A program made the position numbers and the translations under genes. A stretch of DNA of 64,000 nucleotides from Flexithrix dorotheae DSM 6795 (GTDB lineage: Bacteria > Bacteroidota > Bacteroidia > Cytophagales > Flammeovirgaceae): contig NZ_KB903476.1 in the NCBI RefSeq assembly GCF_000379765.1, forward strand, positions 248,204 to 312,203, in the 5' to 3' direction. The notes beneath the pieces were generated by a model, which saw only the letters and a list, made by a program, of their open reading frames with translations, made no database searches and was not told where the DNA came from. This document shows, piece after piece, positions 24,571 to 31,337 of the stretch (its first letter is position 1; the number at the start of each line of letters is the position of its first letter).

Positions 24571-25128
24571 TATTTGTAAAGTTTATATTTTTCCTGTTCT
24601 CCTATAGACATTAATTCTAATTCAGGGTTGCATCAATTTGGGAAAATGGTTGGATCATACCAAAATTTTTATTGGAGACACCCAGATCTTTTGGCTAAAA
24701 AATGCCACAAAAGCATCTTCCCGGTTCAGGAACTCTAGTTCCCGATAAAATTTTCCAAGGTCCGGCATTTCGGTGCTGCTACTCCTGGAATATCAGCCCG
24801 GTAAAAAATTTTATAGCATCCAGAAAAAAACAAATTGACATTTTCCGTATCAAAAAACAAAACTTAAACATGCGCTGAAGTTGTTTGCATTTTTGTATTA
24901 ATTTTGGGGAAATTTTTTAAAAGTTTGTTTAAATTTTAAGTTTCCCGGAATATCGGACCTAAGCGCTTGTTTAAAATTTAATTTTTCAAGCGAAAGTGTT
25001 CAATTTTAAATTCTCACAAAGCAGGAAAATATTTTGGAGTGAGGCTTTATTATCGGACAGATGCTTTGTGGACGTTTGCAGCGAAATATAAATTAAAACA
25101 AATCAAAACAACTAAATTATCTTTCAAC
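24571..25128. other. Structured intergenic region between DUF2807 gene and prfB
   Basis: This 558-bp gap has no convincing gene. It contains a cluster of complementary segments at 24729-24814: GGAAC/GTTCC (24729-24742) and a 10-bp stem ATAAAATTTT (24745-24754) with AAAATTTTAT (24805-24814) enclosing a GC-richer core. A segment at about 24988-25030 is also about 70% identical to 26566-26610 on the far side of prfB. Both may be dispersed repeats or an unrecognised RNA. Confidence 0.5.
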
Positions 25129-26206
25129 ATGAATACATCCCTGTTAAAGGAATTGAAGACAAGAGTCTCTGCCTTGAGGGGGTATCTTTGACTACGATCA
25201 AAAGAATGCCGAACTGCAGAGAGAAGAAGCTTTAACCGCCCAACCTGGTTTTTGGGACGACCCTAAAAAAGCTGAGCAGACCCTTAAGGAAATAAAATTA
25301 AAGAAAAACTGGATTACCAGTTTTGATAATGTCAGTACGCTTTATGATGATCTTGAAACTTTATTCGAGTTCTATGAACTAGGAGAAGTGGATGAAGCGG
25401 AAGTAGAAGAAGCAGAAAAAAAGCTAATTAAAGCCATTGAAGCTCTTGAATTAAAAAAGATGCTGAGCAATGAGGAAGATCCACTGAATGCCATAATGGA
25501 AATTAACCCGGGTGCAGGAGGAACAGAAAGCCAGGACTGGTCGGAAATTCTGATGAGAATGTACATTATGTGGGGGGAAGCCAATGGATACAAAGTAAAG
25601 CAGGTAAACTACCAACCCGGTGAGGTAGCAGGAATAAAATCTGCTACATTAGAGTTTGATGGAGAATTTGCTTACGGCTATTTAAAATCCGAAATTGGAG
25701 TCCATAGATTGGTAAGGATTTCCCCGTTCGATTCGGGAGGAAGAAGACATACCTCTTTTGCCTCTGTATTTGTTTATCCGGAAGTTGATGATTCAATTGA
25801 GATTGATATCAATCCGGCCCACATTACCTGGGATACTTTCAGAGCCAGTGGTGCTGGGGGGCAAAATGTGAACAAGGTTGAAACTGCGGTAAGATTAAAA
25901 CACGCACCAACTGGAATTGTAATTGAGTGTCAGGAATCCCGTTCTCAGCTACAGAATAAGGAAAAAGCGATGAAAATGCTCCAGTCACAGCTTTATCAGA
26001 TGGAAATTGATAAAAGAAATGCTGAGCGTGATAAAGTGGAAAGCAACAAAAAACGAATTGATTTCGGATCGCAAATCAGGAATTACGTTTTACACCCCTA
26101 CAAATTAATTAAAGATGTAAGGACCGGAGTGGAATCTTCAAATGTTCAGGAAGTGCTGGATGGCAATATAAATGAATTTATAAAGGCATTTTTAATGAGC
26201 AGCTAA
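25129..26206 (+). CDS. prfB: Peptide chain release factor 2, programmed +1 frameshift
   Basis: RF2 ends translation at UGA and UAA codons. Translation starts at the ATG at 25129 and after 20 codons meets an in-frame TGA at 25189-25191, in the canonical shift context CTT-TGA-C with an internal Shine-Dalgarno-like AGGGGG just upstream. A +1 shift continues in the frame of GAC at 25190 and gives a protein of about 358 residues. Coding evidence after the shift includes the stop-codon-reading tripeptide in RISPFDSGG, and [11 protein letters not shown] with the GGQ motif. This is normal autoregulation of prfB, not a mutation: low RF2 favours the shift. A simple frame call would begin falsely at 25388. 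A terminator follows. Confidence 0.97.
25175..25192 (+). promoter_or_regulatory. RF2 programmed frameshift signal
   Basis: An AGGGGG Shine-Dalgarno-like run precedes CTTTGAC, where CTT is the slip codon and TGA (25189-25191) the stop that RF2 itself reads. This arrangement is the well-known prfB autoregulation site. Confidence 0.96.
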
Positions 26207-28852: not shown

Positions 28853-28890
28853 AGCCACCACAAATTTCCATCAAAAAGTTTGTGGTGGCT
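28853..28890. terminator. Convergent terminator hairpin
   Basis: AGCCACCACAAA (28853-28864) pairs perfectly with TTTGTGGTGGCT (28879-28890). On the minus strand the stem is followed by TTTTT, so it should stop the LOG-family gene. On the plus strand the tail is weaker. Confidence 0.82.
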
Positions 28891-28925: not shown

Positions 28926-29519
28926 TTAGCTCTTTTCTCCATCAAACCATTTACCCATCTTATTGGGAATATAGTGATCAAACTGCTCCAGCAATCCTTC
29001 AGGAGTTTTATCCACTAAAATCAAAGACCTGTTCACCTTATTTAAAAAGCCATCTTCCACCATTTTATCAAAAAATTGAATTAAAAGATCAAAATACCCG
29101 TCAGTATTAATTAGTCCAATTGGGCAATTGTGTAAGTCTAACTGGGACCAGGTAAGGATTTCGCAAAGTTCATCCATTGTACCAAAGCCTCCGGGCAAAG
29201 CTATAAATGCATCAGACTTTTCAGCCATTATTTGCTTCCGTTCATGCATGCTATCCACAGTTATGATTTCAGTAAGACCTTTATGTGCTACTTCCTTTTC
29301 CACCAGAAAATTGGGAATAACACCAGTAACTTTGCCTCCATTTTCCAAAACTGAATCGGCAATAACACCCATCAAACCAACATTTCCTGCCCCATAGACC
29401 AGGGTATGATTTTTCTTTGCCAATAATTTTCCCAAATCCCAGGCTATTTGTTCAAACACGACCTTATTTCCTGTTCTGGAGCCACAAAACACACAAATAT
29501 TTTGAACCTTATTTTCCAT
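28926..29519 (-). CDS. LOG-family (TIGR00730) nucleotide phosphoribohydrolase-like protein
   Basis: LOG-family proteins hydrolyse the N-glycosidic bond of nucleoside 5'-monophosphates, releasing the base and ribose 5-phosphate. The 197-residue protein has ICVFCGSRTGN at the N-terminus, YGAGNVGLMG for nucleotide binding, the MHERKQIM segment and the signature PGGFGTMDELCE. These are the conserved LOG residues including the catalytic arginine and glutamate. It is the last of three minus-strand genes after a PARP and a small unknown, with gaps of 51 and 95 bases. Whether this is a true operon is an inference. Related proteins act on AMP or cytokinin nucleotides; the natural substrate is unknown. 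Confidence 0.92.
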   Translation of the reverse strand: MENKVQNICVFCGSRTGNKVVFEQIAWDLGKLLAKKNHTLVYGAGNVGLMGVIADSVLENGGKVTGVIPNFLVEKEVAHKGLTEIITVDSMHERKQIMAEKSDAFIALPGGFGTMDELCEILTWSQLDLHNCPIGLINTDGYFDLLIQFFDKMVEDGFLNKVNRSLILVDKTPEGLLEQFDHYIPNKMGKWFDGEKS

Positions 29520-29614: not shown

Positions 29615-29878
29615 TTAATTTTGGGAAGAATACAAATATTGTAAAATATTGTCCATAATTGAAGGCAACTTGTAAATCCGAAACAGGCCATTGTATTCAA
29701 AAGACCATCCATTCTGTTCACAAAGCTCCGCCATAATTGCAGAAATCTCTGATTGAAATGCGATATAACCCAAGCCTCTCAGATAAAGCTTTACTTCCAA
29801 AGTAGTAGTTTCACCATTTTCCAGCATTAAATCTTCTGCTGTAATTCTTATAATATCCAATGTGAGTTTTTTTGCCAT
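29615..29878 (-). CDS. Small protein of unknown function downstream of the PARP gene
   Basis: I do not recognise this 87-residue protein. It is mostly helical in its first half (LDIIRITAEDLMLENGETTTLEVKLYL region) and ends with an aromatic segment that looks like a strand-turn-strand (GWSFEYNGLFRIYKL). That pattern could be a small winged-helix-like fold, but the call is weak. It sits 51 bases after the WGR-PARP stop on the same strand and before the LOG gene. The ATG at 29878 gives a plausible start. Its position suggests a partner or regulator of the PARP. Confidence 0.7.
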   Translation of the reverse strand: MAKKLTLDIIRITAEDLMLENGETTTLEVKLYLRGLGYIAFQSEISAIMAELCEQNGWSFEYNGLFRIYKLPSIMDNILQYLYSSQN

Positions 29879-29929
29879 AGTAACTGAAGTTTTAGAAAGT
29901 TTGATTTTATTTATACTTTGAATGAGTTA

Positions 29930-31171
29930 TTAGTGCCTTACTTCTACCAAATATTTAATTGTACATTGAGATTCATTGTAAACGATATATTCATTATTGA
30001 TTAAATCAGCACCTCCTTTTGCAAAAAGAGAATCGTAATTTTGACCCTTTTCCTTTAGTTTTTTTTCGTTAAAATTATAATGCTCAGGCTGGTGTTTTTT
30101 TACTTTAAACTGGTTTCCGGTGTGTACCTCATAAAGGGCAAGAAAACTTCTTTCCGAGTTTCCCGCAGTCCAATAAGATCCTCTTAAAGAAGTGTAGTTC
30201 AATGACTTTTTAAAACGATCGGCAAAATAAAGCCCATAGCCAAACATTTTCCCGGTTATCACTACATTGGATGGCCGCAATACAAGGCCATTTTCCAGAA
30301 TCGACATCCAGTTTTCGTTTCTGCTTCCGTGCCAAAAAAGCTTAGTTTGTTTATTTTTTCTTTCCCTTAATGACTCGTTAAACTTTTGCTGTGTCCTTAT
30401 GTTTTTCACCTCATAGGCAGCAAAGAATTTCGACTTCTCCCCTTCCATTAATTTCTGAATTTGCTTTTCCACTTTTCTATCCTCTACCTTCGAAACCATT
30501 AACCCCATGGCTTCCAATAGATTTATTTTTTCATTTTTTTCTGTTGCTTCCTTTTTCTGACTGTTAATTTGGACTTGCCCCCGCATTACATCAAGCGTTT
30601 GCTGCTCTTCCAATAACATCTCGTTGATTTCGGCAACTTCTTCAGTAGAATTTACTTTTTCCACCAGATGATCTTTCACATTACCCATTTTTCTGGGAAT
30701 AACCTGATACAGTTCTAAAAGCCTGGCATTAAAATGTTCCGTATTCATATTAGGCTCCACCTTTTTCAACAAATCATCGATAATTAGCTGAGCTTCCTCC
30801 AACTGAGTTTCAGTCACCTGATCAGGATTTACATTGTAATTATACTGAATGGATTTAGTGGCAAATTGCATTAAACTACTGATAAGACTCCTGACTTGTT
30901 CATCAGAAATATCTTCAAAATCGACTTTTTTAGAAGTTGTCGCAAACAAATGAGTCTGGTCTTTATATCCCTTTCTGATTTTTTCCCTGTATTTGGTATC
31001 CCAAAGATTGACCGGATAAATCTGACTGGAAGAACGGCTACCAATCCGGCCATAATTGGTAGTGAAAGTCCCGTCTTCGTTTTCAATCATTTCATAAAAC
31101 TTATTGTTGTTATTGGGGGTAACCATTATTAGTTTGCTGGTTCGAAGGAGTTTGTTTGCTTGTGCCTGCAT
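29930..31171 (-). CDS. WGR-PARP: bacterial poly(ADP-ribose) polymerase-like protein
   Basis: This 413-residue protein has the architecture of a small PARP. Residues about 10-80 form a WGR-like domain (KLIMVTPNNNNKFYEMI, then NYGRIGS in place of WGR). Residues about 85-230 are helical and resemble the PARP regulatory domain. The catalytic domain follows: FWHGSRNENW with His281, MFGYGLYFADRFKKS with Tyr315, and NNEYIVYNESQ with Glu394. That is the full H-Y-E triad of chain-making ADP-ribosyltransferases that use NAD+. WGR domains contact broken or nicked DNA in eukaryotic PARPs, so a damage-response role is a reasonable inference. There are no zinc fingers, BRCT domain or export signal. The start at 31171 keeps the full WGR domain. 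Confidence 0.93.
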   Translation of the reverse strand: MQAQANKLLRTSKLIMVTPNNNNKFYEMIENEDGTFTTNYGRIGSRSSSQIYPVNLWDTKYREKIRKGYKDQTHLFATTSKKVDFEDISDEQVRSLISSLMQFATKSIQYNYNVNPDQVTETQLEEAQLIIDDLLKKVEPNMNTEHFNARLLELYQVIPRKMGNVKDHLVEKVNSTEEVAEINEMLLEEQQTLDVMRGQVQINSQKKEATEKNEKINLLEAMGLMVSKVEDRKVEKQIQKLMEGEKSKFFAAYEVKNIRTQQKFNESLRERKNKQTKLFWHGSRNENWMSILENGLVLRPSNVVITGKMFGYGLYFADRFKKSLNYTSLRGSYWTAGNSERSFLALYEVHTGNQFKVKKHQPEHYNFNEKKLKEKGQNYDSLFAKGGADLINNEYIVYNESQCTIKYLVEVRH

Positions 31172-31300: not shown

Positions 31301-31337
31301 CAAAAAAAAAGCTGACCAAAACGGTCAGCTAAAAAAA
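31301..31337 (-). terminator. Rho-independent terminator after the helical-repeat gene
   Basis: AGCTGACC (31310-31317) pairs perfectly with GGTCAGCT (31323-31330) around a 5-nt loop. Read on the minus strand the stem is followed by a run of nine T residues. It lies 31 bases after the stop of the 31362-32810 gene. Confidence 0.9.

Follow-up and report, generated by a model that had tools for sequence, protein, structure and literature searches.

Bacterial PARPs have hitherto been treated as scattered single genes. In Flexithrix dorotheae DSM 6795, one such gene lies in a 64,000-nt stretch of contig NZ_KB903476.1 (the whole of which is referred to here as the window), followed on the same strand by a gene for an 87-residue protein after 51 bases and then, after another 95 bases, by a gene of the LOG family. 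Does this PARP act alone, or do its neighbors belong to it? An initial annotation had raised the possibility that all three form a linked nucleotide-signaling or DNA-damage module. The three minus-strand reading frames and both gaps are found as it had described them, with its range of 29615-31171 comprising the PARP and 87-residue genes and the LOG gene lying outside this range (Table 1). The gene neighbors within the window are housekeeping genes.

Table 1. Features of the PARP locus and their positions in the window.
Feature	Position	Strand	Basis
WGR-PARP gene, 413 aa (WGR, helical and ADP-ribosyltransferase domains)	29930..31171	-	Pfam, profile match to human PARP2, triad
WGR domain, residues 20-73 (Y40-G41-R42; N21-N22-N23-K24 invariant)	30953..31114	-	Pfam PF05406, invariant columns
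Helical (PARP_reg-like) domain, about residues 90-225, approximate limits	30497..30904	-	continuous profile alignment to solved PARP2/PARP1
ART catalytic domain, residues 232-412	29936..30478	-	Pfam PF00644
Triad codons H281, Y315, E394	30329-30331, 30227-30229, 29990-29992	-	residue check
Partner gene, 87-aa winged-helix protein	29615..29878	-	homologues beside PARP in dozens of loci; AlphaFold2; Foldseek
Predicted winged-helix core, residues 7-70 (helices 7-21, 26-35, 42-56; wing strands 59-62, 67-70)	29669..29860	-	predicted model
LOG-family gene (TIGR00730), 197 aa, neighbor judged outside the module	28926..29519	-	in 18/18 family genomes, unlinked to PARP elsewhere
Terminator-like hairpin upstream of PARP, closing the unit of the preceding gene	31310..31330	-	9-bp stem followed by a T run
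Hairpin downstream of LOG, likely a bidirectional terminator and the end of the local transcription unit	28853..28890		15-bp stem called on +; T run also on -

The 413-residue protein carries a PARP catalytic domain (PF00644, E 4.9e-27) and a WGR domain (PF05406, E 1.8e-5, 25.2 bits against a cut-off of 22), and a Pfam scan detects no further domain, in agreement with the initial reading of a PARP with an N-terminal WGR-like domain but without the zinc fingers or BRCT domain of eukaryotic PARP1. The H-Y-E triad had been placed correctly at His281, Tyr315 and Glu394; it is invariant in an alignment of 40 relatives, as are N-N-N-K and the last two letters of the WGR motif, which is Y-G-R here. 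Built into a profile, these relatives can be aligned with human PARP2 (E 7.8e-41) and with PARP1 along the WGR, helical and ART domains, and by this alignment a PARP2-type helical regulatory domain is present, for which Pfam PARP_reg gives no call. Judged by its sequence, the protein is a true PARP of the PARP2 type, composed of WGR, helical and ART domains. It has what marks the DNA-repair-type PARPs (PARP1/2/3 clade) at the sequence level, namely an H-Y-E ART domain, a WGR domain and, by profile alignment, a helical autoinhibitory domain. H-Y-E is necessary yet not sufficient for poly(ADP-ribose) synthesis and also occurs in mono-ADP-ribosylating PARPs, such as PARP3. Therefore, the label "chain-forming" that the triad had initially earned this enzyme exceeds the evidence, and chain formation is not established. 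According to a genome-wide search, the protein is both the sole PARP and the sole WGR protein of the 9.5 Mb genome. Three macrodomain proteins in this genome could remove ADP-ribose, while a search of it for a PARG-type eraser gave no match and is uninformative, since its control gave none either.

Compared with human PARP2 (PDB 7aeo, 6x0l and others), its best profile match over the WGR, helical and ART domains, the window PARP shares the minimal WGR-HD-ART architecture but is without the disordered N-terminus, has a shorter ART insertion before the glutamate and is paired with a winged-helix gene. Among bacteria, Cytophagales WGR-PARPs were described in 2018 as clade 1.1, with WGR and PARP_cat domains, a modeled helical domain missed by Pfam and mostly a Y-G-R motif (PMC5966428). 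The window PARP matches this clade in all of these features as well as in H-Y-E, and thus extends an already known group by one enzyme. The PARPs of Herpetosiphon aurantiacus and C. difficile CD160 are also bacterial DNA-type PARPs, the former reported to be DNA-dependent and chain-forming (PMC4245714), but fall in another clade (PMC5966428). What is new here is the 87-residue partner. The word "operon" is absent from the main text of PMC5966428, and no partner was found described there; nor did the literature searched, with incomplete coverage, yield a published account of a PARP/winged-helix pair.

The pairing of the two genes is conserved. As searches covered whole genomes, it was not built in by the way in which the genes were found. 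Within the family, four of the 18 genomes have the PARP, and these same four have the partner, adjoining the PARP. Over 395 genomes of the phylum, six have the PARP, seven the partner and six both. The order provides the largest counts, with the PARP (at a threshold of E < 1e-30, three of the 38 being degraded) in 38 of 390 genomes, the partner in 47 and both in 36, a co-occurrence with a Fisher p of 1e-38 when genomes are taken as independent. Counted by genus, PARP and partner each occur in 19 of 129 and together in 18 (p 8e-20); the genera with both span seven families, and 18 of the 19 PARP genera keep the partner. The genes are neighbors in 28 of the 36 genomes that carry both, and among the collected loci the linked partner lies on the same strand downstream of the PARP, beginning 1 bp past its stop in 12 of them. 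In the other eight genomes, the two are unlinked yet both kept, mostly with a long form of the partner. The 87-residue protein thus belongs with the PARP, being kept beside WGR-PARP genes in other Bacteroidota as the initial annotation had anticipated. Two PARP genomes of the order had no detectable partner (G524, which is 81% complete, and G529), and actinobacterial PARPs have no recognizable one. Partner-less PARPs in actinobacteria and in phages (see below) show that the enzyme can exist without it.

Microscilla-like genomes encode, in addition, a second PARP of 764 residues (L143:748-3039, L144:869-3160), which has an N-terminal repeat region with weak TPR similarity and in which Pfam calls no WGR domain. 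The idea that the partner is fused inside this protein was rejected, its repeat-like N-terminus being unlike the partner. In one Microscilla record, a macrodomain gene (L017:14560-15012, E 8.6e-20), a possible eraser, lies a few genes downstream of a PARP.

The 87-residue protein had been called unrecognized, and by sequence it is: no family in Pfam or NCBIfam, the named winged-helix families included, is matched above curated cut-offs, and a comparison with the PDB returned nothing significant. An AlphaFold2 model built with 43 relatives (pLDDT 86.7, pTM 0.75) shows the three helices and beta wing of a winged helix, and its top Foldseek matches are all winged helices (best E 5e-3), repressors of the ArsR, PadR and BlaI type among them. 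The partner also weakly resembles the DNA-binding domain of ArgR and an activator of phage late promoters. Its conserved residues are T24-T25-T26-L27, K30, L33-R34, A40, Q42, S46, W58, G64 and R67. In the model, near-invariant positions map to helix 2, to the first part of helix 3 and to the wing, usually the DNA-facing side of a winged helix. Such a predicted placement would fit backbone binding and promoter reading alike and does not tell one from the other.

In seven of the genome-contig loci, the winged helix forms the N-terminus of a protein of 290-330 residues. In the long partner of L012 and a Microscilla copy, L147, Pfam calls a WGR domain (E 1e-6 and 1.8e-6, above cut-off), whereas others score below the cut-off, and the WGR-like region of these fusions mostly no longer has the W-G-R letters at its core. 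A fold search with the winged-helix-WGR model gave one match with E < 0.001, the Bacteroides fragilis protein 2ra8, and otherwise weak ones. Two loci (L033, L040) have the winged-helix gene in two tandem copies after the PARP, and a Microscilla-like genome (L148:1602-2168) has several WYL_2 proteins of about 190-215 residues with a partner-type winged helix, as in phages.

The Spirosomaceae place the pair in a distinct setting, flanked on one side by a divergent WYL-WCX regulator and on the other by one or two matches to pPIWI_RE_Z, a domain that takes its name from a system predicted to act in inter-genomic conflict (PMC3702460). Across loci L032-L059, L119-L142 and L152, this regulator recurs with one or two pPIWI_RE_Z proteins of about 150 residues, the winged-helix gene and an optional PARP, which together look like an uncharacterized island. 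Seven partner-only genomes examined in this family keep the regulator, the Z proteins and the winged helix without a PARP. Since the winged helix persists there, it has another or an additional role in Spirosomaceae. In G266 of the same family, the PARP (L068:1243-2079) is probably decaying or inactive, as its helical domain is lost and the tyrosine of the triad aligns to a histidine.

The LOG gene is not conserved beside the PARP, so that of the proposed three-gene module the link between PARP and 87-residue partner stands while the link to LOG does not. The protein is a clear LOG-family member (Lysine_decarbox, E 1.2e-45; TIGR00730, 197.6 bits against a cut-off of 96.35), though its score does not reach the cut-off set for the cytokinin equivalog model. 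Each of the 18 family genomes has LOG, PARP or not; in G013 a distance of 1.03 Mb separates it from the PARP, and the PARP carrier G016 lacks a close ortholog. It was near no other collected PARP locus, in a search that did find the positive control in the window's own genome. As a conserved module, PARP-LOG is therefore rejected, and what remains is a link specific to this genome: the genes share a strand and a 95-bp gap, and because the window has no terminator-like site between the 87-residue gene and LOG, co-transcription with the PARP is possible in Flexithrix. That PARP and LOG together form a nucleotide-signaling or DNA-damage module has next to no probability left.

Relatives of the PARP are also encoded on 86 viral contigs of up to 500 kb, most of them full-length, with 33-51% identity among the best 80 of the 86. 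The gene is also present in cultured phages, Cellulophaga phages among them; full-length homologues (phrog_23333) are encoded by Cellulophaga phi17:2 and by XacN1. The partner domain was found within 6 kb of the PARP in 14 of 80 phage loci, in several directly after it. In Cellulophaga phage phi17:2, the order is PARP, partner (ALO80433.1, phrog_33401; E 6.5e-10 against the partner profile), DNA ligase and DNA methylase. The phage partner differs from that of the window in being longer, with a WYL_2/phrog_2267-like tail, and many phage PARPs are without a nearby partner; a large middle group, clostridial contigs included, has no recognizable one. In a tree of 111 PARPs, phage sequences surround a single Bacteroidota clade (SH-aLRT 100) of 39 rows, which holds every Bacteroidota PARP but the 764-residue Microscilla paralogue. 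Some partner-bearing phages are found near the Bacteroidota clade, others in a deep Cellulophaga group. Judging from these sequences, the PARP/partner unit most likely entered Bacteroidota chromosomes from large phages. As this is a quick tree whose root rests on long outgroup branches, transfer in that direction is likely, not proven. Three MAG contigs labeled Clostridiaceae, Nanoarchaeia and Clostridium (L053, L054 and L055), with PARPs of 43% identity, also resemble phage contigs, based on dense same-strand small genes, phage-like neighbors and, for two of them, a position among phage PARPs in the tree.

What, then, would the pair do? We put it slightly above an even chance that the PARP is an ADP-ribosyltransferase activated by DNA ends and the winged-helix protein its DNA-binding accessory subunit, the two genes forming a unit shared with large phages. 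The domains, the triad, the pairing, the predicted fold and the nesting among phages are findings, while the activation, the ADP-ribosylation, the accessory role and the direction of transfer are inferred. The WGR domain would bind a DNA end or nick, this binding would relieve the inhibition exerted by the helical domain, and the H-Y-E ART domain would use NAD+ to ADP-ribosylate the PARP itself or nearby targets. The winged-helix partner would be a dedicated DNA-binding accessory that places or activates the PARP on DNA, or else its main substrate. Variants of the partner bear their own WGR domain in other lineages and a WYL_2/SH3-like tail in phages.

The main rival to an accessory subunit is autoregulation, in which the partner would control transcription of the PARP operon and related islands. 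Small winged-helix proteins adjoining enzyme genes are usually regulators. The repressor-type fold matches, the weak ArgR and late-promoter-activator likeness and the persistence of the partner next to a WYL regulator in islands that have no PARP are all consistent with autoregulation. The partner also shares its winged-helix core with MolR-like WGR regulators and ArgR-type winged helices, though it matches no winged-helix family above cut-off, and WGR domains occur in MolR-like transcription factors (PMC7824862) as they do in the fused partners. However, such fusions suit a reader of DNA ends at least equally, a distinct WYL regulator is already present in Spirosomaceae, and the partner is located downstream of the PARP, often 1 bp past its stop, and is retained where unlinked. 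Autoregulation is unlikely on this evidence, if still a serious contender. Next comes a defense or toxin-antitoxin module, in which the PARP would be a DNA-damage-triggered effector that ADP-ribosylates or depletes NAD and the winged helix would restrain it. A gene order resembling toxin then antitoxin, the patchy distribution, the plentiful phage relatives and the company of WYL-WCX and pPIWI_RE_Z in Spirosomaceae would suit such a module. Its improbability stems from the housekeeping neighbors in the window, the partner-less PARP genomes, the many phage PARPs with no partner in reach and PADLOC, in which no model for a known anti-phage defense system was matched. Patchiness and phage relatives could also mean that PARP and partner merely hitch-hike on mobile DNA without functional contact. 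This is very improbable, given their retention in nearly all PARP genera over seven families and the 1-bp coupling; moreover, hitch-hiking is no explanation for the eight genomes in which both are kept though unlinked.

The accessory subunit invites one parallel. HPF1 is an accessory factor of human PARP1/2, and as a small protein in its own right that is adapted to a WGR-PARP it would be a possible functional counterpart of the partner; the parallel is one of function alone, with neither sequence nor fold evidence behind it, and no homology is claimed. A bolder and rather doubtful extension, which we offer tentatively, is that a phage-born two-component PARP system was domesticated by Bacteroidota. 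It would consist of a PARP2-like sensor of DNA ends and an obligate winged-helix (or winged-helix-WGR) partner providing DNA recognition in trans, so that separate proteins would do the work of HPF1 or of the DNA-binding half of eukaryotic PARP1, and would serve phage-host conflict or phage DNA repair. Should the partner change how the PARP is activated or what it targets, a DNA-type PARP would have an accessory factor in bacteria, and the nesting among phages would bear on the origin of the Bacteroidota PARP lineage. Its presence in nearly every PARP genus of the order and in cultured phages gives a concrete handle on the role of bacterial PARPs.

A minor observation concerns another gene of the window, prfB (RF2; 25000-26206, plus strand). 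Its zero frame ends in RGYL and a stop and is followed in the +1 frame by FDYDQK, the classic programmed frameshift site. Because this site joins the two frames, the GTG start listed at 25388 is internal.
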